Assembly (NCBI RefSeq): GCF_020539865.1
Contig: NZ_JAJBQV010000008.1
Location: 1-64,000 of the forward strand
DNA: 64,000 nt
Origin: Megasphaera elsdenii
GTDB taxonomy: Bacteria > Bacillota > Negativicutes > Veillonellales > Megasphaeraceae
Direction: 5' to 3'
This document shows, piece after piece, positions 1,969 through 64,000 of the stretch; the stretch's first letter is position 1, and each line of letters begins with the position of its first letter. The position numbers and the translations under genes were made by a program. Below the pieces are notes generated by a model. The model saw only the letters and a program-made list of their open reading frames with translations. It made no database searches and was not told where the DNA came from.

Positions 1969-3994
1969 GTTCTCCCGTCTTCTTGGCACTCATATCACTG
2001 ATTTTCCAGGTATCTCCCTCTTTGACCATTGTCACCTGACCGTTGAAATACTGCACTTTGACTTTACTACTGCCTGGGATGCGGTCCCGCGCTTTCAAAG
2101 TGAAAGAAAACATCGTCTTATCGCCGCCAGATGAGACTTTGCGGATATTGGAAACGTCACTGGACAAGGTATTGGCATAGCCCGGAGCGTAACCATCATA
2201 ACTACCGACGGAAGTTTGGAAATCCGGTGTCAGCAACTGGAAGGCCTCTTGCAGGTGATGCCCGGAAATCGCCTTGTGATAAGCCAGGAAAGCCTGTTTG
2301 GCGCCATCCGTCTGTTCATCGGTCAGGCGGACGCTGATGTATTCGACAGTCTGGCTGTTCTTGCTGACGGCAAAGCGCAGGATCCCCGGTTTCCCGTCAT
2401 CGGTCTTAAAAGTATATTCGTAATGAATCTGGGCTCCATATTCCGAAGCCTGATAGTCATCGCCATAAGCATTGACGACGTCATCGAAAGAGCTTCCCTG
2501 ATGGATGCCCCGCTTACTCTGGGCTGCCGGCGACGACGACGTCAACATGATGACTTTGTTGTCTTTGACGACGACGTCCATATCAGTAAACTTGTGGTGA
2601 ACGGCCCCGTCCTTACTGTCGGAAGTACTGAGTTCCCGTCCCAGATTATCTTTGGCTTCATCCCAGCTTTGACCCAGGTAAACGCCGTTTAAAGAAAGTT
2701 CAGAATCAGCCGTCTTAACAGGCTGCGACGATACGGCATTTTCCTTGGCCGGGACGGCTTTTTGTTCATGGGCGTACCAGACGCCGCCGGCAATGGCTAC
2801 GGCAAGGACACAGGCCAAGGCAATGATGAGGTTGCCATGAGCCTGGAGCTGCACCTTTAAGGGCAGCTCTTTTTTCTGCGGCGAAAGGATAGGGGGCGTC
2901 ACAGGATTCATTTCGGGCTGAGCCGATTTTTCCTCTGACTGTACCGCTTTCATAGAACCATACTGAGCTTCCGGAACCTGCAGCTGGGCTCCGCAGGACG
3001 GGCAGAATTTTGCCGACGGGTCGACGGGCTGGTGGCATTTTGGGCACATATGGACGGGTTTGCCGCAATGGCTGCAAAAGACCGCATCAGCCGCCAGGGG
3101 ACGGCCGCAATGAGGGCAGTATTTTTCATTTACCCTGTTTACACTTTGTGTTGACATATAGCCTTTCCTATTTCCAAGATTGGCTTGGTTATCGCCTGTA
3201 TCGTCAAAGTCAAACGATGTAAACATGTTTTCACCGCTAATCGTTCCGATAGAAGCCAGCGACGAAATCCCGAAGATAAAGAAGACTGCCGTCCAAGGAA
3301 CGGTGTTCATAAGGCGGAAGGCTTGGTAAAAGGAAGTTCCCATCCTTTCTTCCCGGCGATAGATATAATGCTGACAGAAAACAGGAATCATCCAGACCAG
3401 GACCAGGAGGACGGCATAGCCGATAAAAGTCCCGTAACCGCCACGGGTCATGCCAAACATGAGCTGGGTCATACTATAAACGATGTGGCCGACGACAGCC
3501 GCCGTACAAAGGGCACTGATAAGCCAGCTTAGGACAACGTAGTAAATATAGCGGCGGTATTTACTGATATAATGCCAACGTCTGCGATTCACATAAATAG
3601 TAGCGATGATACCCAGAATACAGAGAAGGGCAGCAACAGTCCCACTGAAAATGTCAGCAATCAAAATCAATAAAAGGTCTACGACGAAATACCCCAGGAC
3701 CATCTTGAGCAGGTAAACTAAAGCTCGCGTCTTATAGAGCAGATAAAGCATGATGACCAAAAGGGCCAGCGAAACCAGCGTATTGAGCCCGCTGAAAAAG
3801 GTCAGGACATCCATGGTCCGCCGTATCCCAACAGGACCTCCGAACAAACCGATCATAGCCAGTCCCCGCAGGGCAAATTCAAATAAAATGCCCAGTACCG
3901 TCGTCACGACACCAACATACATCATGGCGATGATAGCAGTATACTTCTTATGTTCTGTCGGGAACCACTTGCCAAAATAACCTAAAGAATCCAT
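1958..3994 (-). CDS. Polytopic membrane protein with double zinc ribbon
   Basis: A 678-residue protein of unknown function. The first ~260 residues hold about six hydrophobic segments. Next come two consecutive zinc ribbons of CPxCG...CxxCG type (CPHCGRPL, FCSHCG, CPKCHQ, FCPSCG; about 295-345), a linker, one more membrane segment (about 390-410) and a ~260-residue soluble C-terminus. The C-terminus contains a segment reminiscent of small secreted repeat domains (LNGVYLGQSWDEAKDNLG) and an NTF2-like stretch. It starts after GGAGGTG and is followed without a gap by the AsmA-like gene. The pair may form an envelope module; no pathway can be assigned. Confidence 0.6.
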   Translation of the reverse strand: MDSLGYFGKWFPTEHKKYTAIIAMMYVGVVTTVLGILFEFALRGLAMIGLFGGPVGIRRTMDVLTFFSGLNTLVSLALLVIMLYLLYKTRALVYLLKMVLGYFVVDLLLILIADIFSGTVAALLCILGIIATIYVNRRRWHYISKYRRYIYYVVLSWLISALCTAAVVGHIVYSMTQLMFGMTRGGYGTFIGYAVLLVLVWMIPVFCQHYIYRREERMGTSFYQAFRLMNTVPWTAVFFIFGISSLASIGTISGENMFTSFDFDDTGDNQANLGNRKGYMSTQSVNRVNEKYCPHCGRPLAADAVFCSHCGKPVHMCPKCHQPVDPSAKFCPSCGAQLQVPEAQYGSMKAVQSEEKSAQPEMNPVTPPILSPQKKELPLKVQLQAHGNLIIALACVLAVAIAGGVWYAHEQKAVPAKENAVSSQPVKTADSELSLNGVYLGQSWDEAKDNLGRELSTSDSKDGAVHHKFTDMDVVVKDNKVIMLTSSSPAAQSKRGIHQGSSFDDVVNAYGDDYQASEYGAQIHYEYTFKTDDGKPGILRFAVSKNSQTVEYISVRLTDEQTDGAKQAFLAYHKAISGHHLQEAFQLLTPDFQTSVGSYDGYAPGYANTLSSDVSNIRKVSSGGDKTMFSFTLKARDRIPGSSKVKVQYFNGQVTMVKEGDTWKISDMSAKKTGEHVE

Positions 3995-4058
3995 AGAAAC
4001 ACCTCCATGCCAATAAGGGGAATTATAATTTCATGTTACACCTATTTGGCAAAAAGGA

Positions 4059-4090
4059 AAAGAGGTTGTCACATGAGACAGCCTCTTTTC
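4059..4090. terminator. GCTGTC-type hairpin between divergent genes
   Basis: Stem AAGAGGTTGTC / GACAGCCTCTT with a six-base loop and T tract. It lies between two divergently transcribed genes, so it ends neither; it looks like a displaced member of the repeat-like terminator family. Confidence 0.55.
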
Positions 4091-4182
4091 TACAAACTAT
4101 AATTTCCTTGATTTTTCACAGCTTTTTCTTTATATTAAAAGTAACGACTCCATATGCGAGGTGTTTTATGGATAGACAGTAA

Positions 4183-4902
4183 ATGACGCGCCCGGAGTGG
4201 ATATGGGCACAGCTCACGACTTGGCAGATGATTTACATAATGCTCGCCTTTTCCTTCATCGCCGGTGGGCTCTGTGTCATGTTCCCCTCTTTGGCGCCAG
4301 TGGCTTTCATCATCATGATTGTCCTCTTCGTCGCCCTCATCGCCTTCGTCTTCCAGCTCTTATTGTACTGGCTCTATCGGAATGGCTACTCCTCATCAGG
4401 CGCTTTGAATATCATGGTCATCATCGCCCTGATCCTGCCCTTTCTGAAAGCAGCTGCAGGTGGCGTCATCGACGGCGGCATGGCCGACGGCTTCGATCAC
4501 GACTGCGCCTTTGCGCATGACGGCGCAGTCAGCCACGAAGGCTTAGTCAAAGCGCCTTCTGGGTACCATCATGTAAACGGCTATACCCGCATCGCCCCAG
4601 ACGGCCATACAGAATACGTCCACGACTACATCCGCTCCACTCCGGACGGTATCCTTGAAAACAACTTGTCCTATCACGGGAATCATCCCATCGTCGAAGG
4701 CACATACCAGGCGATTCCAGGAGAAGGCGGTCACGTCCCAGCTAATACAGGCCAGCCCCTGTACGTCATGCTGGCCGGCAGCATAAAAAGCGGCATCTAT
4801 ACCATTACCGGCATAAGCCGTCATACCCTGGTCATGCTCTTCCTCATTTATACCGCCGTCTTCCTCGTAACCAGTGTGATCGTTTACATTGTATATCGGT
4901 AA
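4183..4902 (+). CDS. Membrane protein with PDG-repeat ectodomain, unknown function
   Basis: 239 residues: three hydrophobic segments near the N-terminus (about 15-100), a polar middle part, and one C-terminal membrane segment (about 215-237). The middle has two related motifs, GYTRIAPDG and DYIRSTPDG, spaced about 17 residues, plus a His-rich run (DHDCAFAHDG). The GAGGTG site upstream best serves a four-codon frame (MDRQ, stop) whose TAA abuts this ATG at TAAATG. Either the gene is translated by reinitiation or the ancestral start was lost. No family recognised. Confidence 0.55.
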   Translation: MTRPEWIWAQLTTWQMIYIMLAFSFIAGGLCVMFPSLAPVAFIIMIVLFVALIAFVFQLLLYWLYRNGYSSSGALNIMVIIALILPFLKAAAGGVIDGGMADGFDHDCAFAHDGAVSHEGLVKAPSGYHHVNGYTRIAPDGHTEYVHDYIRSTPDGILENNLSYHGNHPIVEGTYQAIPGEGGHVPANTGQPLYVMLAGSIKSGIYTITGISRHTLVMLFLIYTAVFLVTSVIVYIVYR

Positions 4903-4907
4903 AAAAC

Positions 4908-5076
4908 TGGGGCTGTCGCATGAAGCTTTTTGTCATCATGTAAGGCCCTTTTTCTTTAATGTTTGAGGCTTAATGTATGATATTTGAGGCGATTGCTTTA
5001 AATTTAAAAGCATCCACTTCAAACTTTCCATTTCAAACTCAAAAAGGGGCTGTCTTCGTGCGACAGCCCCTTTTAG
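4908..5076. repeat. MITE-like ~160-bp repeat, copy 1
   Basis: This stretch begins with GGGGCTGTCGCATGAAGC and ends in a hairpin, GGGGCTGTC..GACAGCCCC (5045-5070). Its interior (TTTAATGTTTGAGGC, GATTGCTTTAAATTTAAAA, TTCAAACTC) recurs in inverted orientation at 21306-21465. Ends are inverted copies of each other. It sits between two convergent genes and supplies terminator hairpins for both. Together with the hairpin, palindrome and heptads that follow, it fills the gap 4903-5247. Confidence 0.7.
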
Positions 5077-5097
5077 GTGGCTAGTGGATATTTATAA

Positions 5098-5119
5098 GGG
5101 CCGTCCCAAAGGACGGCCC
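5098..5119. terminator. Bidirectional hairpin
   Basis: Perfect nine-base stem GGGCCGTCC / GGACGGCCC with a CAAA loop, between convergent genes. It lacks a long T run, so it is either a weak terminator or a structural repeat. Confidence 0.45.
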
Positions 5120-5157
5120 GTCATATCTTGGGATGATTCTCTGGTCAACCAGGTTAA

Positions 5158-5206
5158 GAAATCACACATATATTGAAGCGGCCTCGCCACGTGCGAACTC
5201 CTACGG
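5158..5206. repeat. CCACGTG palindromic repeat (REP-like), copy 1
   Basis: Contains GAAATCACACATAT, then CTCGCCACGTGCGAACTCCTAC. The same two blocks occur at 21486-21533 and in variant forms at 18991, 29445 and 62320. Always intergenic. Confidence 0.65.
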
Positions 5207-5250
5207 ATTACGAACCACAAATCACTAACAACGAACTACTAAAGACACTA
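5207..5250. repeat. Degenerate heptanucleotide tandem repeat
   Basis: About six 7-base units of pattern AnnACnA (for example ACCACAA, ATCACTA, ACAACGA, ACTACTA) run up to the stop codon of the next gene. Comparable period-7 arrays follow other copies of the palindromic repeat. Confidence 0.5.
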
Positions 5251-6408
5251 ATACCACTCGTTGATCCAGTTCTTTTCGGTCGGGAACAAGTCCTGCAGGG
5301 TTTGCAAGGCCTTATCATTTCCCTGGAGTTTTTCATTGAAAACCAGGTCGTTTACATCCATGGCACCGAAGGCTAATAAAGCCAAGGTTCCGATGGGCAT
5401 AGTGACCCCTGCCTGTTTGCTCGTTTCTCGGGTAACCACGGGTTTACCGTTGTTTACTACCAAGGTAAAGGTCCCGCAGTTCCACTCTGCCAAGGGATCT
5501 TCCGTATGGAAGGTAACCGTACCGTCGGTTTGGTAAGGAAGCTGTTCCAAGGCCCCTTTGACATCAACGATGCGGCCTGTCATAAAGGGCATCGTTTCAT
5601 GGCCCTGTTTTCCATCGGGATAAAAACGATAGGACTGGTCATGGAGGCCTTCATTCCACTGGAATGCATCGCCTTGGGAACGGTGGTTGTACATATAGCC
5701 TAAAAGTCCCCGTTTCCCTTTGCGGCAGGTGTAAACGAATTCACCACTGATGATAGTCGGTTCTCCTAGCTGATAGAAGGCATAGCCAATAGGTTCCTCA
5801 CCATCGAAGCAGACGGCGATATTGCCTTCTGCCAGTTGGGCTTCGATATGGCTCCGCCAGCTCTTTTCATCGCGCAGAGCATAACCGGACAAGTCTTTCG
5901 TATAACCTTCATAGACAGCAGCCAAATAGGGCCATTGATCCGGGCTGTTGACAAAGGCATAGCGTACAGTCCGGTCCGTCAGCGGCCGCAGGGCTTCCAG
6001 TAGCATCGTTTCCTTCCACTGATGGCAATAGAGTTCGTAACCATAGGGCTGATAGAACCCGGCCTTGCTGGGCATGAGGATGTGAATATAATGACCGCGG
6101 CGTTTCATTTCCTCCAAAGCAGCTGTCAACAGTTTTCCGCCTACACCGCTGCGCCGAGCTGCAGGATGCGTTGCCAAGCCGACGATATACGATGTGTCGA
6201 TGGCTTTGCCACGCAGGCACAACGTATACGGGTTGAGATGGGTCAAGCAGGCCATATCATCGCCTTCAAAGCCCATGAGGACGTTTTCAGGCTGATAAAA
6301 ATGATTGAAATACCACTGGAAAAATGGATCTTCCCGGTGTTCAAAACAATAGTCCCAAAGGCTTTCGACGAGGCCCCGGTCCAATTCAGTCGCTAAGCGG
6401 AAGTGCAT
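5248..6408 (-). CDS. Eis-family GNAT N-acetyltransferase
   Basis: 386 residues with Eis architecture: an N-terminal GNAT fold, a second acetyltransferase-like half and a sterol-carrier-like C-terminus. The acetyl-CoA loop is visible as VGLATHPAARRSGVGGKLL, followed by HILMPSKAGFYQPYGYE, a hallmark of the family. Relatives acetylate aminoglycosides or other amines using acetyl-CoA in the cytosol; the substrate here cannot be read from sequence. The gene follows the DUF2156 gene by 12 bases and probably shares its transcript. It ends in the repeat-rich gap to its right on the map (4903-5247). Confidence 0.85.
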   Translation of the reverse strand: MHFRLATELDRGLVESLWDYCFEHREDPFFQWYFNHFYQPENVLMGFEGDDMACLTHLNPYTLCLRGKAIDTSYIVGLATHPAARRSGVGGKLLTAALEEMKRRGHYIHILMPSKAGFYQPYGYELYCHQWKETMLLEALRPLTDRTVRYAFVNSPDQWPYLAAVYEGYTKDLSGYALRDEKSWRSHIEAQLAEGNIAVCFDGEEPIGYAFYQLGEPTIISGEFVYTCRKGKRGLLGYMYNHRSQGDAFQWNEGLHDQSYRFYPDGKQGHETMPFMTGRIVDVKGALEQLPYQTDGTVTFHTEDPLAEWNCGTFTLVVNNGKPVVTRETSKQAGVTMPIGTLALLAFGAMDVNDLVFNEKLQGNDKALQTLQDLFPTEKNWINEWY

Positions 6409-6420
6409 ACAAAAGCCTCC

Positions 6421-7329
6421 TTATTTCTGGCGTAGTGTAACATCATATTTTTCGACGAAATGATCCGGGTTATATGATTCCTTTGAGTGGCGCAGGCCGG
6501 GAATCCCCATATCTTCTTCACGGTTGATATATGTCGTATGTGGCCAGGCATGGACGACGAATTCATGATTGATGACCTGGTAGAGGCCGCGAATCGTCGG
6601 GTCGCTCTTTTCAAAGTGGATGATGGCCGTATCATCGTTGAGCATTTCACCGATAGAGAATGCAACGATTTTATTGTACATGCGGATGGCACCGCCTGTC
6701 GGCTGGAGGACTTCCCAATTATCGAAGACCGTTTCAATAGCATGGCGTTCGCCTAAGAGTTCATCATCTTCGTCACCGGCCTCGTGCTGGTCGTACCAGG
6801 ATTTTTCCGCAGCCAGACATTCATCGAAGATATCTTCCGTAATAGGGACGTATTCCCAGTTGCCGAAATACTGATTACGGAAGTGATTGAGGTTATTCTT
6901 CTTCTGTCGATATTTCTTGCCGGACAAGTTGATCAAGCTCTGGGTCAGATAAACGTATTCATAATTGTCCCGGTCCGGCGTGAAGTCATAACAGTCTTCA
7001 CAGAGGGCCTTGATCCGTTCGACAGCCTCTAGCGTAACCCCTTTCATCAAGAAAGGATAACCATGTTCATCGAACCATTCGTGCATACGCAGGACGCCTT
7101 TGACGAAACTGCCATCTTTGCGGGCAAATGGCGGAATCCAGAACTGTTTCTTGCCGCGGCCTGAGCGGATATAGAGGACATTGTCTTCTTCAGCCCATTG
7201 GATTTCATACGGTTTCTGCCAGGCAAAGAGCGTCATGAACGTAGCGTCGGCCTGTTCATATCTTTTCTGATGAAAATAGTCATCTATGAGTGGTTTATCT
7301 TCTAAGCGAAATTCTCTAAATTCAATAAT
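6421..7329 (-). CDS. DUF2156 (lysyl-tRNA/PG transferase-like) protein, probable ATT start
   Basis: Homologues carry the C-terminal domain of phosphatidylglycerol lysyltransferases (GNAT-like fold) and lack the membrane part; their substrate is unknown. Diagnostic segments are DNYEYVYLTQSLINLSGKKYRQKKNNLNHFR and GLYQVINHEFVVHAWP (given in part). The first in-frame ATG (7236) would remove about 30 conserved residues: upstream codons read IEFREFRLEDKPLIDDYFHQ, as in family N-termini. Between the upstream TAG (7342-7344) and that segment there is no ATG, GTG or TTG. Two ATT codons (7324-7329) lie 5-8 bases after GGGGGAGA. I therefore place the start at ATT 7329, as in infC; a point mutation or sequencing error is the alternative. 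Confidence 0.75.
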   Translation of the reverse strand: MIEFREFRLEDKPLIDDYFHQKRYEQADATFMTLFAWQKPYEIQWAEEDNVLYIRSGRGKKQFWIPPFARKDGSFVKGVLRMHEWFDEHGYPFLMKGVTLEAVERIKALCEDCYDFTPDRDNYEYVYLTQSLINLSGKKYRQKKNNLNHFRNQYFGNWEYVPITEDIFDECLAAEKSWYDQHEAGDEDDELLGERHAIETVFDNWEVLQPTGGAIRMYNKIVAFSIGEMLNDDTAIIHFEKSDPTIRGLYQVINHEFVVHAWPHTTYINREEDMGIPGLRHSKESYNPDHFVEKYDVTLRQK

Positions 7330-60436: not shown

Positions 60437-61282
60437 ATGAAAATTTTCCGTACTGTCAAAGAAATGCAGGCATTTGCTAGTGAACAGAAAAAAGCTGGTA
60501 AGATTATCGGTTTGGTCCCGACCATGGGTGCTCTCCACGAAGGTCATCTGACCTTGATGCGGGCGGCTAAAGCCAAATGCGACGTCGTCATCGCTTCGGT
60601 CTTCGTCAACCCGACCCAGTTCGGCCCGAACGAAGATTATGACGCTTATCCGCGCCGTTTTGATGAAGACTGCCGGAAGTTGGAAAGCGTCGGTGTCGAT
60701 GCCGTCTTCCATCCGGAACCGTCGGAAATGTATCCGGAAGGTTATTGCACGTATGTCAACGTCGACGGCGACATTACCCATAAACTCTGCGGGGCTCAGC
60801 GTCCTATCCATTTCCGCGGCGTCGCTACGGTCGTTACGAAATTGATGAACATCACTCGCGCCGATGAAGCCTTCTTTGGCCAGAAAGATGCTCAGCAGGT
60901 CGTCGTTGTCCGCCGTTTTGTCAGCGACCTCAACATCCCGGTCCACATCAATATGGTCCCCATCGTCCGTGAAGAAAGCGGTCTGGCCCGGAGCTCGCGA
61001 AATGCTTACCTTTCGCCGGAAGAAAAACAGGCAGCCCTGGTTTTGTCCCGTAGTCTGCGCAAAGCTAAGGCAGCTTATGAAGGCGGCGAAAAAGACGTAG
61101 AAACGCTGAAATCCATCGTTACCAAGGAAATCCAGGCTGAACCGATGGCTTCTATCGATTACGTCGACCTTTTCTCTTTCCCAGCTTTGAAACCGATCCA
61201 GACTGTCGATCAGGAAAGCCTCTTGGCCATTGCCGTCCGCATCGGCAAGACGCGCCTCATCGATAATGTCATCTTAGGCTAA
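60437..61282 (+). CDS. panC: Pantothenate synthetase
   Basis: 281 residues. Joins pantoate and beta-alanine with ATP. HIGH-type motif in VPTMGALHEGHLTLMR, FVNPTQFGPNEDYDAYPR, FGQKDAQQVVVVRRF, and the KMSKS-equivalent loop ARSSRNAYLSPEEK. AAAGGAG precedes the ATG. panB and panD are not nearby, consistent with a strain that imports or otherwise obtains pantoate. Confidence 0.97.
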   Translation: MKIFRTVKEMQAFASEQKKAGKIIGLVPTMGALHEGHLTLMRAAKAKCDVVIASVFVNPTQFGPNEDYDAYPRRFDEDCRKLESVGVDAVFHPEPSEMYPEGYCTYVNVDGDITHKLCGAQRPIHFRGVATVVTKLMNITRADEAFFGQKDAQQVVVVRRFVSDLNIPVHINMVPIVREESGLARSSRNAYLSPEEKQAALVLSRSLRKAKAAYEGGEKDVETLKSIVTKEIQAEPMASIDYVDLFSFPALKPIQTVDQESLLAIAVRIGKTRLIDNVILG

Positions 61283-61289
61283 GGGAATC

Positions 61290-61343
61290 TTCACATTTTC
61301 TTCACATTTCCTCCACATCTTTTTCGCACGTCTCTGGTATAGT
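61290..61343 (+). promoter_or_regulatory. Promoter with four 11-bp-spaced response-regulator half-sites
   Basis: TTCACA (61290), TTCACA (61301), TCCACA (61312) and TTCGCA (61323) sit on an exact 11-base register. A -10 box TATAGT lies at 61338-61343, with the last half-site in the -35 position. Direct 11-base repeats overlapping the -35 are the known binding layout for OmpR/PhoB-type activators. Such a regulator is encoded 1.3 kb downstream. Confidence 0.65.
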
Positions 61344-61381
61344 AAAAGCATAAACAGAGGGGTACTACAAAGGAGGTTTTC

Positions 61382-61681
61382 ATGATGAAGAAAAAAATCT
61401 TAGCCGGATTGGCGACACTCATCGTAATTGCCGGTTTTTCCGCCTTTGCAGCCACACCAGCTGCTTCAGAAGGTTCATCGTCAGGGACTTACGGCTCAGG
61501 TTATACGTGTTATGACAACAGTAACGGGTATTGCCGGGGACCACGGGCCTGCTATGATGACTACGATAACTGCTATACTGGAAATGGTTATTGCCAGGGA
61601 CCGCGCCGCGGCTGCCGGGCCGATGGCCAGCGCGGCTGTCAGGGCCGTCAAGATTGCCCTGCCTATAGCGAACAACAGTAA
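61382..61681 (+). CDS. Small Cys-rich exported protein
   Basis: 99 residues after AAAGGAGG. Signal peptide (about 1-23, ending AFAA), a Ser/Gly linker and a mature part with eight cysteines and many Tyr/Asp. It has an internal duplication, NGYCRGPRAC and NGYCQGPRRGC. No family recognised. Exported Cys-rich proteins of this size often bind metals or form disulfide scaffolds. First gene behind the half-site promoter; the Met/His-rich membrane gene follows 28 bases later. Confidence 0.7.
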   Translation: MMKKKILAGLATLIVIAGFSAFAATPAASEGSSSGTYGSGYTCYDNSNGYCRGPRACYDDYDNCYTGNGYCQGPRRGCRADGQRGCQGRQDCPAYSEQQ

Positions 61682-61709
61682 GCCGTTCTAATCAAAGGGG
61701 GAAAACAAT

Positions 61710-62279
61710 ATGGTAATGACTCACTACATGGAACTCTTATCGCTCCATGAACCTTGGTTCTTGATTTTCTTCATGCTCGTACCGATGGTATTGGCTGAAA
61801 CGATTTTAGCGTCTGGTGCTTTTTCCTTGCTCTACAAGGACAGCCGCAGTGAAAAATGGGACAGCCTGAGCCACGTCTGCGGACTCATCTTAGGCGTCTT
61901 CTTCATTGTAGCTACGGTATACATCGTCACATCCTATGTCCCGACTATCCAGTGGCGCGGCCCGATTGATTATATTTCTATTTGGGCTTATGTCTTAGGC
62001 GTTATCCCAGCCGTCCTCATCCTCTTGCAGGAATTGGGTATTATCTTTAAGAGCTCCGATTCGACGGCAAAGATCAAGAAACACATCGTCCTTATGATTC
62101 TCTTCGTCCTGTTCACGCATTTAGCCATGGTCTTCGGCATGGCTGACCCGCAGCTCGCAGGCTATGTCCCGCCGAAACAGAACATGCAGATGAATGGCAA
62201 TATGCCCATGGACCACAGTCAGATGAATCATGACCAGATGAATAACAACAAGGGTCAGATGGACCACAGTAAGATGTAG
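61710..62279 (+). CDS. Four-helix membrane protein with Met/His-rich tail
   Basis: 189 residues after AAAGGGGG. Four hydrophobic segments (about 15-40, 52-75, 88-110, 122-145; e.g. WFLIFFMLVPMVLAETILASGAF in part) and a soluble C-terminal tail of ~36 residues. The tail contains eight Met and three His in MxM, MNxNMPMDHS, MDHSKM spacings. Such tails bind Cu(I)/Ag(I) in known copper proteins. No catalytic family recognised; it could be a metal-binding or transport accessory. Probably co-transcribed with the Cys-rich gene. Confidence 0.65.
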   Translation: MVMTHYMELLSLHEPWFLIFFMLVPMVLAETILASGAFSLLYKDSRSEKWDSLSHVCGLILGVFFIVATVYIVTSYVPTIQWRGPIDYISIWAYVLGVIPAVLILLQELGIIFKSSDSTAKIKKHIVLMILFVLFTHLAMVFGMADPQLAGYVPPKQNMQMNGNMPMDHSQMNHDQMNNNKGQMDHSKM

Positions 62280-62280
62280 T

Positions 62281-62420
62281 TTCGTGGCTCGTGCTTCGTG
62301 GTTCATGTCTCGTGCCTTCGTAGGGGCTTGCACGTGGTAAGCCCGTTACAGGTTATGTTGGAATTTCTTAATTAGTTTTTTGAGAGAATTGTACACATCC
62401 CGGAGCGGGTGTCCCTACAG
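62281..62420. repeat. Heptad repeat plus CCACGTG-type palindromes, copy 5
   Basis: 62281-62315 holds five 7-base units (TTCGTGG, CTCGTGC, TTCGTGG, TTCATGT, CTCGTGC). Then GTAGGGGCTTGCACGTGG with GCCCGTTACAG (62320-62351), and a second arm GTACACATCCCGGAGCGGGT..CCCTACAG (62391-62420). Same organisation as the paired copy at 29445-29522, more diverged. Confidence 0.6.
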
Positions 62421-62456
62421 AAAAAGGCGCTGTCTTTATGCGACAGCGCCTTTTTT
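62421..62456 (+). terminator. GCTGTC-type terminator
   Basis: AAAAAGGCGCTGTC / GACAGCGCCTTTTTT. Separates the two-gene metal-type unit from the regulator genes. A TATAAT (62462-62467) follows at once and may start the regulator transcript. Confidence 0.85.
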
Positions 62457-62490
62457 CATGCTATAATTAAGGCAAAAAGGGGTGAACACG

Positions 62491-62667
62491 ATGAATTTAG
62501 CGCAGCCGATTTTAGAGGGAATCATCGCTTTGGCTAAACAGTACGATATTCAAAAGGTCATTCTTTTTGGCTCCCGTACCCGTGGCGATAACTGGGAGCG
62601 CAGTGATATTGATTTGGCTGTCTGCGGTGGAAATATCACGCAGTTTTATGAAAAATATGAGAATTGA
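62491..62667 (+). pseudogene. Truncated MNT-type nucleotidyltransferase
   Basis: 58 residues from ATG 62491 behind AAGGGGTG. Contains the polymerase-beta-like core KVILFGSRTRGDNWERSDIDLAVCGG (in part; GS and DxD motifs) but stops after about half the ~100-residue family length. No HEPN partner follows, though MNT-HEPN pairs are common toxin-antitoxin modules. The 3' part appears replaced by the response-regulator start region. Probably a remnant, though a short product with the active site could still be made. Confidence 0.65.
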
Positions 62668-62677
62668 GGTGGATTTT

Positions 62678-63385
62678 TTGCGAACGAATTCAATTTTAAT
62701 CGTCGATGATGATGAAAAACTTTGTGCTTTGTTAAAATCTTATTTTGAGCAGGAACAGTTCATCGTCTATATTGCTCACGATGGCATGACAGCATTGCAT
62801 ACGCTGCGCAACCAGAAACCGCAGATTATGCTCCTCGATTTGATGATGCCCGGCATGGATGGCTTCGAGGTCTGCCGCCGTATCCGCCAGTTCAGCGATA
62901 TTCCTATTATCTTCTTGTCAGCCAAGGACGATGAAACGGACCGCCTAGTCGGCCTCAATATGGGCGGCGACGATTATGTGACTAAGCCTTTTCACGTCAA
63001 AGAAGTCATTGCCCGTGTCTACAGCCTGCTGCGGCGGACTCGCGGCGAAGTACTGCAGCAGACGACGTCGTATACCATACGGGATTTGACCATCGACAAG
63101 GAAAAATTTACTGTCTTGAAAGGAAATCAGCCTGTACCCCTGACGCCGACGGAATTCAATCTCCTCGAAGTCCTGGCTTCGGCTCCGGACCGGGTGTTCA
63201 GCCGCATGCAGCTCATGGATAAAGTGCAGGGTGGCTATGGCTTTAAGGGTTATGAACGGACCATCGACACGCATATCCACAATTTGCGTAAAAAACTAGA
63301 ATCTGACCCGGCTCATCCGACGTATATCCTGACGGTATGTGGCATTGGTTATAAATTCGATGGAGGTCCTCATGAAGAAAGCTGA
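62678..63385 (+). CDS. OmpR-family response regulator
   Basis: 235 residues from TTG 62678, five bases after GAGGTGG. Receiver domain with acidic pair D10/D11, phospho-Asp54 in MLLDLMMPGMDG, Ser81 and Lys103 (TKPF). C-terminal winged helix (about 135-230: LTPTEFNLLEVLASAPDRVFSR, YERTIDTHIHNLRKKLESD). Such regulators bind 10-11-base direct repeats. It overlaps the kinase gene by 14 bases and is the obvious candidate to read the half-sites before the Cys-rich gene. Confidence 0.95.
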   Translation: MRTNSILIVDDDEKLCALLKSYFEQEQFIVYIAHDGMTALHTLRNQKPQIMLLDLMMPGMDGFEVCRRIRQFSDIPIIFLSAKDDETDRLVGLNMGGDDYVTKPFHVKEVIARVYSLLRRTRGEVLQQTTSYTIRDLTIDKEKFTVLKGNQPVPLTPTEFNLLEVLASAPDRVFSRMQLMDKVQGGYGFKGYERTIDTHIHNLRKKLESDPAHPTYILTVCGIGYKFDGGPHEES

Positions 63386-64000
63386 CAGTATCGTTATACG
63401 ACTGACAGGGATGGTCTTTATCTTGATTTTCCTGACCATCGCCATTTTGCTCATCTTGGTCAACAATCAGATGGATAGCCATTTCTCCCAGTATTTGAAT
63501 AACACGTCCCAAATGATGGGAAATGGGCACCAGGGAATGGGAATGATGCACGGCATGATGCATGGACCCGCGGAAATTACGTATATATCGGCTGTCCACC
63601 GGTCGCTGCTTTGGGTCGGCCTGGGCATGTTAGCCGTCAGTGTCACTATCAGTTACTTCATTGTTCGGGAAATCATGCGGCCTTTGTCGGCCCTGACCGA
63701 CGCAGTCCAACAAGTCAAAGCCGGGACGTATGGCCAGACCGTGCCCGTCGAACGTCGCGATGAAGTCGGGACCTTAACGGAAACTTTCAATGACATGTCC
63801 CAGGAATTGGCAAAAAACGATAAGATGCGGCGCCGTTTATTTGCGAATATCGCCCATGAACTGCGGACGCCACTGGCCATCTTGCAAGGCAATCTGGAAG
63901 GCATGATTGACGATGTCATTCCGACAGATAAAAAGGTTCTCTTATCCATGGAAGATGAAACACTGCGCATGGGGCGGCTTATCCAGGACTTGCGTGACTT
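63372..64000 (+). CDS. Sensor histidine kinase with Met/His-rich sensor loop (partial, runs off window)
   Basis: 209 residues visible, starting ATG 63372 after GGAGGTCC. First membrane segment about 12-31, extracytoplasmic loop 32-78, second segment about 79-97, HAMP (about 98-150: IMRPLSALTDAVQQVKAGTY) and the H box NIAHELRTPLAIL with His162. The ATPase domain lies beyond the window. The loop is short (~47 residues), and residues 48-64 hold seven Met and three His (MMGNGH, MGMMHGMMHG). This suggests direct Cu(I)/Ag(I) sensing, as inferred for CusS-like kinases. Confidence 0.92.
   Translation, partial: MKKADSIVIRLTGMVFILIFLTIAILLILVNNQMDSHFSQYLNNTSQMMGNGHQGMGMMHGMMHGPAEITYISAVHRSLLWVGLGMLAVSVTISYFIVREIMRPLSALTDAVQQVKAGTYGQTVPVERRDEVGTLTETFNDMSQELAKNDKMRRRLFANIAHELRTPLAILQGNLEGMIDDVIPTDKKVLLSMEDETLRMGRLIQDLRD

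Follow-up and report, generated by a model that had tools for sequence, protein, structure and literature searches.

Among the described systems, the CopRS pair of Corynebacterium glutamicum is one of the closest to the locus reported here. The response regulator CopR binds TGAAGATTTnnTGAAGATTT, as determined by mutation and gel shift, and the loop of the kinase CopS contains H39, H41, H56, M42 and M44 (available part of PMC3140484). Here, we analyzed a 64,000-nucleotide stretch of Megasphaera elsdenii DNA (contig NZ_JAJBQV010000008.1, positions 1 to 64,000, called the window), whose end carries genes for an exported Cys-rich protein, a DUF6803 membrane protein, an OmpR-family response regulator and a sensor histidine kinase. 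Judged by sequence, the locus belongs to a known kind, CopRS plus CsoR-CopA, and has in DUF6803 an effector that is undescribed. The sequence-only reading of the window had proposed a soft-metal stress circuit, and this proposal gained support from the operator, from co-occurrence and from the copper genes that neighbour the locus in relatives. These features, as well as the predicted regulon and the conserved residues, were computed. Sequence comparison strongly supports a soft-metal system, most likely one for copper or silver.

We propose that the locus deals with periplasmic copper/silver stress, and we assign a probability of roughly 0.78 to the mechanism as a whole. The CopS-type kinase would sense Cu(I) or Ag(I) outside the cytoplasm through its short outward loop and phosphorylate its OmpR-family partner. 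The regulator would bind TTCAYA-N5-TTCAYA repeats with an 11-bp period just upstream of the promoter and switch on the genes for the Cys-rich protein and DUF6803. The latter, a predicted four-helix inner-membrane protein with M3, M7, M22, H137, M140, M144 and a flexible tail at or near the outer face, may bind Cu(I) at that face and either retain it or pass it on. The Cys-rich secreted protein would soak up metal outside, and an adjacent copA-csoR operon, seen in relatives, would cover the cytoplasmic side. In this scheme we infer the identity of the metal, the phosphotransfer, the DNA binding, the direction in which copper moves and the role of the secreted protein.

Operator, regulator pair and neighbouring copper genes

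Three direct repeats, TTCACA, TTCACA and TCCACA, are located at positions 61290-61295, 61301-61306 and 61312-61317 of the + strand, with 11-bp spacing, and are kept before DUF6803 in relatives. An operator had been expected before the first gene, and the TTCAYA repeats at 61290-61317 are present there as a predicted binding site. The last repeat is followed, after 20 bases, by a putative -10 box TATAGT (61338-61343, + strand), which is missing from the list given by a sigma-70 pattern scan. The search for TTCAYANNNTCTTCAYA with at most one mismatch gave one match in the window, as compared with a shuffle mean of 0.08 (7 of 100 shuffles had at least one match). Across the class, TTCAYA-N5-TTCAYA precedes DUF6803, and it starts 62-146 bases upstream where the Cys-rich gene is absent.

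Of 380 Negativicutes genomes searched, 75 contained DUF6803; 14 control genomes gave no match. The sequence-only reading had named, as a check, whether both effectors always co-occur with the two-component pair. For the membrane protein, co-occurrence is supported: the pair lies within about 4 kb of DUF6803 in 40 of the 75 genomes (with the G010 regulator split over two frames), and the kinase is encoded elsewhere in 27 more. The latter comprise 26 of the 33 further DUF6803 genomes searched, at a score of at least 300 bits, and G006, where the kinase is on another contig. Six genomes gave no kinase match (G224, G177, G227, G018, G342 and G115) and G082 gave a partial match of 230 bits; G173, with a 26-residue DUF6803 fragment, stood outside this test. 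The Megasphaera family, represented by 17 genomes, includes 10 with DUF6803 and the kinase, one with the kinase only (G345), one with DUF6803 only (G342) and five with neither. The order DUF6803-regulator-kinase recurs in several genera, and the notion of the kinase as an isolated curiosity was therefore rejected.

The operator, allowing at most one mismatch of 12, precedes DUF6803 at 35 of the 40 loci where the pair is nearby and at all 26 loci whose kinase is encoded elsewhere, and at one of six loci where no kinase was found; this exception, G115, has a regulator match. The resulting comparison, 61/66 loci from kinase genomes vs 1/6 from genomes without it, gives a Fisher p of 1e-4, uncorrected for kinship. 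The count omits the five partial DUF6803 loci L125-L129, the locus L130, and G082, in which the operator is present and the kinase is doubtful. Three of the five misses are Megasphaera massiliensis-type loci with two mismatches (shuffle p 0.045-0.06). In the case of G055, an exact site lies further upstream and heads a gene run that ends in DUF6803, and in G091 an exact site is located about 460 bases upstream of DUF6803.

The neighbouring genes, counted by tblastn of the stretches around the loci, changed one part of the sequence-only reading, which had stated that CopA and all other known copper genes are missing. In 9 of 11 Megasphaera-family genomes (those in which a kinase orthologue scored 200 bits or more), copA, convergent to the kinase gene, and then csoR are found at most 1 kb behind the kinase. 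These are the loci L107, L112, L114, L115, L117, L118, L120, L131 and L132, with gaps of -28 to 915 bases; at L131 one further gene lies in between. Since the window ends inside the kinase gene and copA-csoR of the relatives lies beyond this point, the missing CopA is an artefact of the window edge, and the absence of known copper genes was rejected as support for a new system. In the genome of the window itself, copA-csoR probably follows the kinase as well. The CopA of L001 scored 585 bits vs the TIGR01511 copper cut-off of 397, and the CPC motif is present in 10/10 Megasphaera-type copies (the nine and L123; in L132, the matched span includes one stop). The L001 repressor matches PF02583 above the cut-off and is below that of RicR (NF052430; 86.7 vs 175 bits). 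With respect to the C-H-C pattern of CsoR-type proteins, the first Cys is present in 10/10 and H-x3-C in 9/10 Megasphaera-type copies.

The exact TTCAYANNNTCTTCAYA was also sought in 55 chosen genomes, 50 of which have DUF6803 or the kinase, with overlapping sites counted separately. We found 108 sites, whereas the reversed pattern gave 9. For G001 and G338 (the two closest genomes) and for G005, the metal-stress locus holds the only site in the genome. The gene behind each of 52 sites not located before DUF6803 was then surveyed; most were named by eye, with profiles run on a subset. Metal-type genes, small Met/His/Cys-rich proteins or the regulator pair itself follow 35 of the 52 sites: CusC-type genes (10), a multicopper oxidase (1), a Cu-ATPase with an interrupted frame (1), the regulator pair or its run (2), small exported Met/His-rich proteins (13), exported Cys/His proteins (3, including L097 by analogy with L093) and small Cys/His/Met membrane proteins (5). 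In the profile searches, the resistance-nodulation-division (RND) and adaptor proteins of L013 scored above the CusA/CzcA and RND-adaptor cut-offs, and its TolC-like protein scored under its own. The L135 oxidase is above the cut-offs of Pfam's three multicopper oxidase models, the Met-rich protein of L134 was identified as DUF2680, and one other protein as TPM.

One genome, G303 (L134-L136, L141-L144 and L160), contains 16 exact operator sites. They precede TPM-domain-like proteins (twice), Lgt, DUF2680-type Met-rich proteins, lipoproteins and the multicopper oxidase, and could possibly represent a large copper regulon.

The regulator gene (~62678-63385, + strand, with a probable TTG start) encodes a CopR-like protein of the OmpR family with PF00072 and PF00486 domains. 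Side by side with it lies the gene for the CopS-like kinase (63372-64000, + strand), which has HAMP and HisKA domains and a short Met/His-rich extracytoplasmic loop; its C-terminus is cut by the window end and is whole in L001. The loop is 39 residues long and holds 7 Met and 3 His within 17 residues. The binomial chance is 2e-7 for 7 Met in 17 and 1e-9 for 10 Met+His in 17, with assumed frequencies of 0.028 for Met, 0.05 for Met+His and 0.011 for Cys, and with stretches chosen post hoc, which also applies to the chances given below. In the survey of 39 loops, from which three further kinases outside the loop pattern were excluded, the length was 24-58 residues, and 28 loops contained at least five Met+His and 8 contained three or four. 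The number of Met ranges from 0 to 11, so the loop residues vary, in disagreement with the conservation that the sequence-only reading had implied. An SxHxSL motif just ahead of helix 2 was found in 31/42 kinases. A PDB search with the kinase alignment returned kinase-core matches, none of which, among the best 60, was informative on the sensor loop. The truncated kinase of the window scored 45.9 vs a cut-off of 292.55 bits on TIGR01386 (cztS_silS_copS). The regulator is outside the TIGR01387 subfamily, yet it appears from its sequence to work like CopR.

Several observations weigh against a copper/silver circuit of this kind. The regulator scored 151.6 bits on the heavy-metal model TIGR01387 (cztR_silR_copR), below the cut-off of 279.2, and 3 of the 39 kinase loops have fewer than three Met+His. 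The motif was found in the window, widened from relatives and then counted on the same loci. Four exact sites in total were detected in five Megasphaera-family genomes with neither DUF6803 nor the kinase, which indicates that an operator background exists. Furthermore, 17 of the 52 surveyed sites lie before other genes (10, including DedA-like, Lgt, TPM, RseC-like and HxlR-like) or before no plausible gene (7). Five Negativicutes genomes with DUF6803 have neither the kinase nor the operator, and G347 and G348 have the kinase and DUF6803 with no copA in the stretch examined. In Campylobacter concisus, DUF6803 adjoins genes for TorD-like and Cys-rich Fe-S-like proteins with no regulator pair in the stretch examined, which may point to a second use of the family. 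The Escherichia coli CreB (cre/blr) tag TTCACN6TTCAC has the same 11-bp TTCAC spacing (available part of PMC3660660), and the site alone thus does not prove copper.

This tag is also one of the reasons to consider a general envelope-stress pair of the BaeSR/CreBC kind, the regulon of which would include metal genes by chance. The best partial NCBIfam scores of the kinase (BaeS) and the regulator (MtrA, BaeR, YycF, PhoB and CreB) point in the same direction, although all of them are far under the cut-off. We consider this explanation improbable, because metal-type genes, Met/His/Cys-rich genes or the pair itself follow so many of the surveyed sites, copA-csoR is next door, the site matches that of C. 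glutamicum CopR, and related kinases of Rhodococcus and Mycolicibacterium have copper genes beside them.

DUF6803 and the exported protein as proposed effectors

The membrane protein (61710-62279, + strand, 189 residues) matched PF20617, i.e., DUF6803, with E 7e-58 and 195.8 bits vs a cut-off of 27, over model positions 1-161 of 162. DUF6803 is a widespread family without an assigned function, which agrees with the earlier view of this protein as an undescribed effector; no paper naming DUF6803 or PF20617 was found in the open-access literature searched. A profile of ten diverse members matched 2334 proteins at E <= 1e-3; the matches listed were mainly from Megasphaera and broadened the sampling little. 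For a membrane family of this size, the locus offers a testable function. The search for DUF6803 on plasmids gave no match at E 1e-5.

Conservation was determined in an alignment of 81 sequences, comprising the window protein and 80 loci (one partial copy included, four shorter ones excluded). Met3, Met7, Met22 and Glu30 are kept in 80/81 sequences (with a gap in one), Asp87, His137, Met140 and Met144 in 81/81, and His125 in 80/81. Position 5 is His in 54 sequences and Asn in 26. Met3/Met7 and Met140/Met144 thus form two M-x3-M pairs with almost no variation. Beyond position 145, Met+His make up 26% of the residues on average, the lowest value being 4%; in the window, the tail contains 8 Met and 3 His (8 Met in 34 residues, binomial chance 4e-6). 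The importance that the sequence-only reading had attached to Met and His in this protein is thereby supported.

In the AlphaFold2 model of DUF6803, four long helices are followed by a tail without structure, and the mean predicted local distance difference test score (pLDDT) is 76.5. Loops 1 and 3 contain 1.5 and 3.7 Lys/Arg on average, whereas the means are 1.1 for loop 2, 1.0 for the tail and 0 for the N-terminus. According to the positive-inside rule, the latter three segments would face outward, so that the tail would be exposed outside the cytoplasm, as was initially proposed. Foldseek found no match to the model in the PDB at E <= 0.001, and the sole match in a PDB sequence search was due to chance (E 0.36). 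VIA-align matched the model to ordinary helical bundles in an unspecific manner, including designed di-heme bundles and STEAP. The fold search therefore gives no information on a new fold.

We see an even chance that DUF6803 is a new membrane-anchored chaperone or transporter of Cu(I)/Ag(I) that links the output of CopA to periplasmic sequestration or Cus efflux. Such a protein would use an outward-facing site made of the two M-x3-M pairs and His137 together with its disordered Met/His tail, and would act with fast-evolving secreted Cys/His metal sponges across diderm Firmicutes. The M-x3-M pairs, located in or beside the helices, are reminiscent of Ctr1 and would also suit a copper importer with a CopD/YcnJ-like role, which brings Cu(I) into the cell and takes no part in detoxification. 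No match to the CopD domain (PF05425) was found in the DUF6803 protein of the window by a profile search up to E = 1. Genes of the CusCBA, multicopper oxidase and Cu-ATPase types, as well as those of exported proteins that look metal-binding, lie behind the same operator as DUF6803, which is the pattern of efflux or sequestration. We consider import unlikely, yet it stays a live rival because CopD/PcoD and YcnJ, which are membrane proteins of copper loci, were proposed to be importers (available part of PMC7558416).

A further alternative is that DUF6803 binds heme or quinone for electron transfer and has an indirect link to copper only. The near-invariant His125, the invariant His137, the di-heme and STEAP matches of the four-helix model and the Campylobacter copies beside Fe-S- and TorD-like genes (by eye) would fit this function. 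It seems very unlikely to us, since both His residues lie on one predicted helix, the VIA-align matches are at the level expected of any helical bundle, and it offers no explanation for the conserved Met pairs or the Met/His tail.

In Campylobacter concisus (L007, L009 and L017, ~3472-6633), the tails of DUF6803 are very rich in Met and His, and genes for a 563-residue Cys-rich Fe-S-like protein and a TorD-like protein precede it.

The exported protein is encoded at 61382-61681 (+ strand) and consists of 99 residues with 8 Cys, all located after an N-terminus that resembles a signal peptide by eye (8 Cys in 75 residues, binomial chance 2e-6). It is lineage-specific and fast-evolving, with 12 homologues only. 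The homologue in L001 retains the 8 Cys, and three syntenic proteins of the M. massiliensis type have 2 Cys and several His. For this reason, eight Cys were rejected as a functional signature; the Cys residues are not conserved ligands in orthologues, a result that the sequence-only reading itself had named as one that would speak against it. The tblastn search did not find the Cys-rich gene in the other loci carrying the system. The protein did not match a known profile of bacterial metallothioneins, and the matches below the cut-off were to unrelated families only.

That the Cys-rich gene is a member of the regulon by its chemistry, despite residue drift, is best supported by G345 (L131). 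There, the same operator after panC precedes a Cys/His-rich secreted protein at the equivalent place, DUF6803 was not found in the genome, and the regulator pair and copA-csoR remain downstream. The region 1245-4473 of L131, downstream of the Cys/His exported protein, contains transposase-like genes (by eye) where DUF6803 is missing.

Gene order and transcription blocks

The proteins were found where the sequence-only reading had placed them, and its residue counts were correct. The panC gene (60437-61282) is located directly ahead of the metal-stress genes. Two elements absent from that reading separate the membrane protein gene from the regulator gene. The first is a strong hairpin with a T-run at its end (62420-62456, + strand; -23.9 kcal/mol, z -6.5), a probable intrinsic terminator. 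The second is the truncated remnant of an MNT-type nucleotidyltransferase gene (62491-62667, + strand, 58 residues; PF18765 and PF01909 above cut-off). Because of these elements, the four genes probably form two transcription blocks. A terminator pattern scan of 61200-62800 found no terminator, also not at the hairpin, which in our reading is missed because its T-run pairs with an A-run of the stem. In the same region, the sigma-70 pattern scan found seven promoter-like sites vs a shuffle mean of 2.2. A promoter-like extended-TG TATAAT at 62462-62467 (first hexamer at 62440), which is a consensus match only, lies just past the hairpin, upstream of the MNT remnant and the regulator gene.

The MNT remnant is an insertion and is not thought to be part of the copper system. 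The MNT-type gene is longer in L001 and L115, where it is followed by a HEPN-like gene (by eye), again between DUF6803 and the regulator gene (L001 6849-7377; L115 10238-10898); an MNT match is absent from L002-L005. In G338 (L115, 8346-9758), DUF6803 and the MNT gene are separated by an inserted minus-strand gene for a group II intron-type reverse transcriptase (by eye). The DNA identity to the window, in alignable parts, is 90-95% for G338 (L115) and 87-91% for G001 (L120).

Comparison with known copper systems

The periplasmic sensor domain of E. coli CusS is larger than the loops found here, and the CusRS operator is different. In the window kinase, with its 39-residue loop, no large sensor domain of the CusS type is present. 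The two systems resemble each other in the principle of periplasmic Cu/Ag sensing by a two-component pair, which is used by CusRS-CusCFBA (available part of PMC10100754) and is proposed here. They are also linked through Pelosinus-type relatives, in which the same operator precedes an RND operon of the CusA/CzcA family; no CusCBA match was found in the Megasphaera-type stretches examined. The CsoR-CopA operon is of a known kind as well. It lies outside the window and adjoins the kinase in relatives, where it would form a second, cytosolic circuit; csoR is preceded by TACCCC...GGGGGTA, apparently its own operator (by eye). The literature on copper resistance or two-component copper sensing in Megasphaera, judged by titles and the openings of abstracts, contained nothing on such a system. 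Searches for a copper histidine kinase with CopA in Negativicutes found nothing, and those for Pelosinus copper efflux found nothing on point by titles.

The likeness to CopRS of C. glutamicum extends further. That system has a site with a TGAAGA (TCTTCA) core and an 11-bp period, as in the operator of the window, His and Met in the kinase loop, and a P-type ATPase and a multicopper oxidase in its regulon, as predicted here. It is actinobacterial, the available part of PMC3140484 does not mention DUF6803, and the two are likened by operator and loop, not by identity of the pair.

The Propionispora kinase (L016) was compared with plasmid sequences, and the top ten matches, among the best 25 of at least 5000, were actinobacterial. 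In two of the four plasmid regions examined, the related kinase is located beside multicopper oxidase genes. The Rhodococcus region has the kinase among a multicopper oxidase, a metal-sensitive regulator and a heavy-metal P-type ATPase. The Mycolicibacterium region has a multicopper oxidase beside the kinase and an exact TCTTCA-N5-TCTTCA between the oxidase and regulator genes. For Rubrobacter and Cellulomonas, neither a copper pump nor an oxidase is listed up to 5 kb away; both regions carry DUF305, CcdA and Lgt genes, and that of Rubrobacter also a cation diffusion facilitator.

Copper is a common feed additive for the animals that host Megasphaera. With a readable operator, the copper regulon may be predicted across much of the class. 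The comparison points to a periplasmic copper circuit, similar to the one in actinobacteria, in diderm Firmicutes including Megasphaera, Propionispira and Pelosinus.

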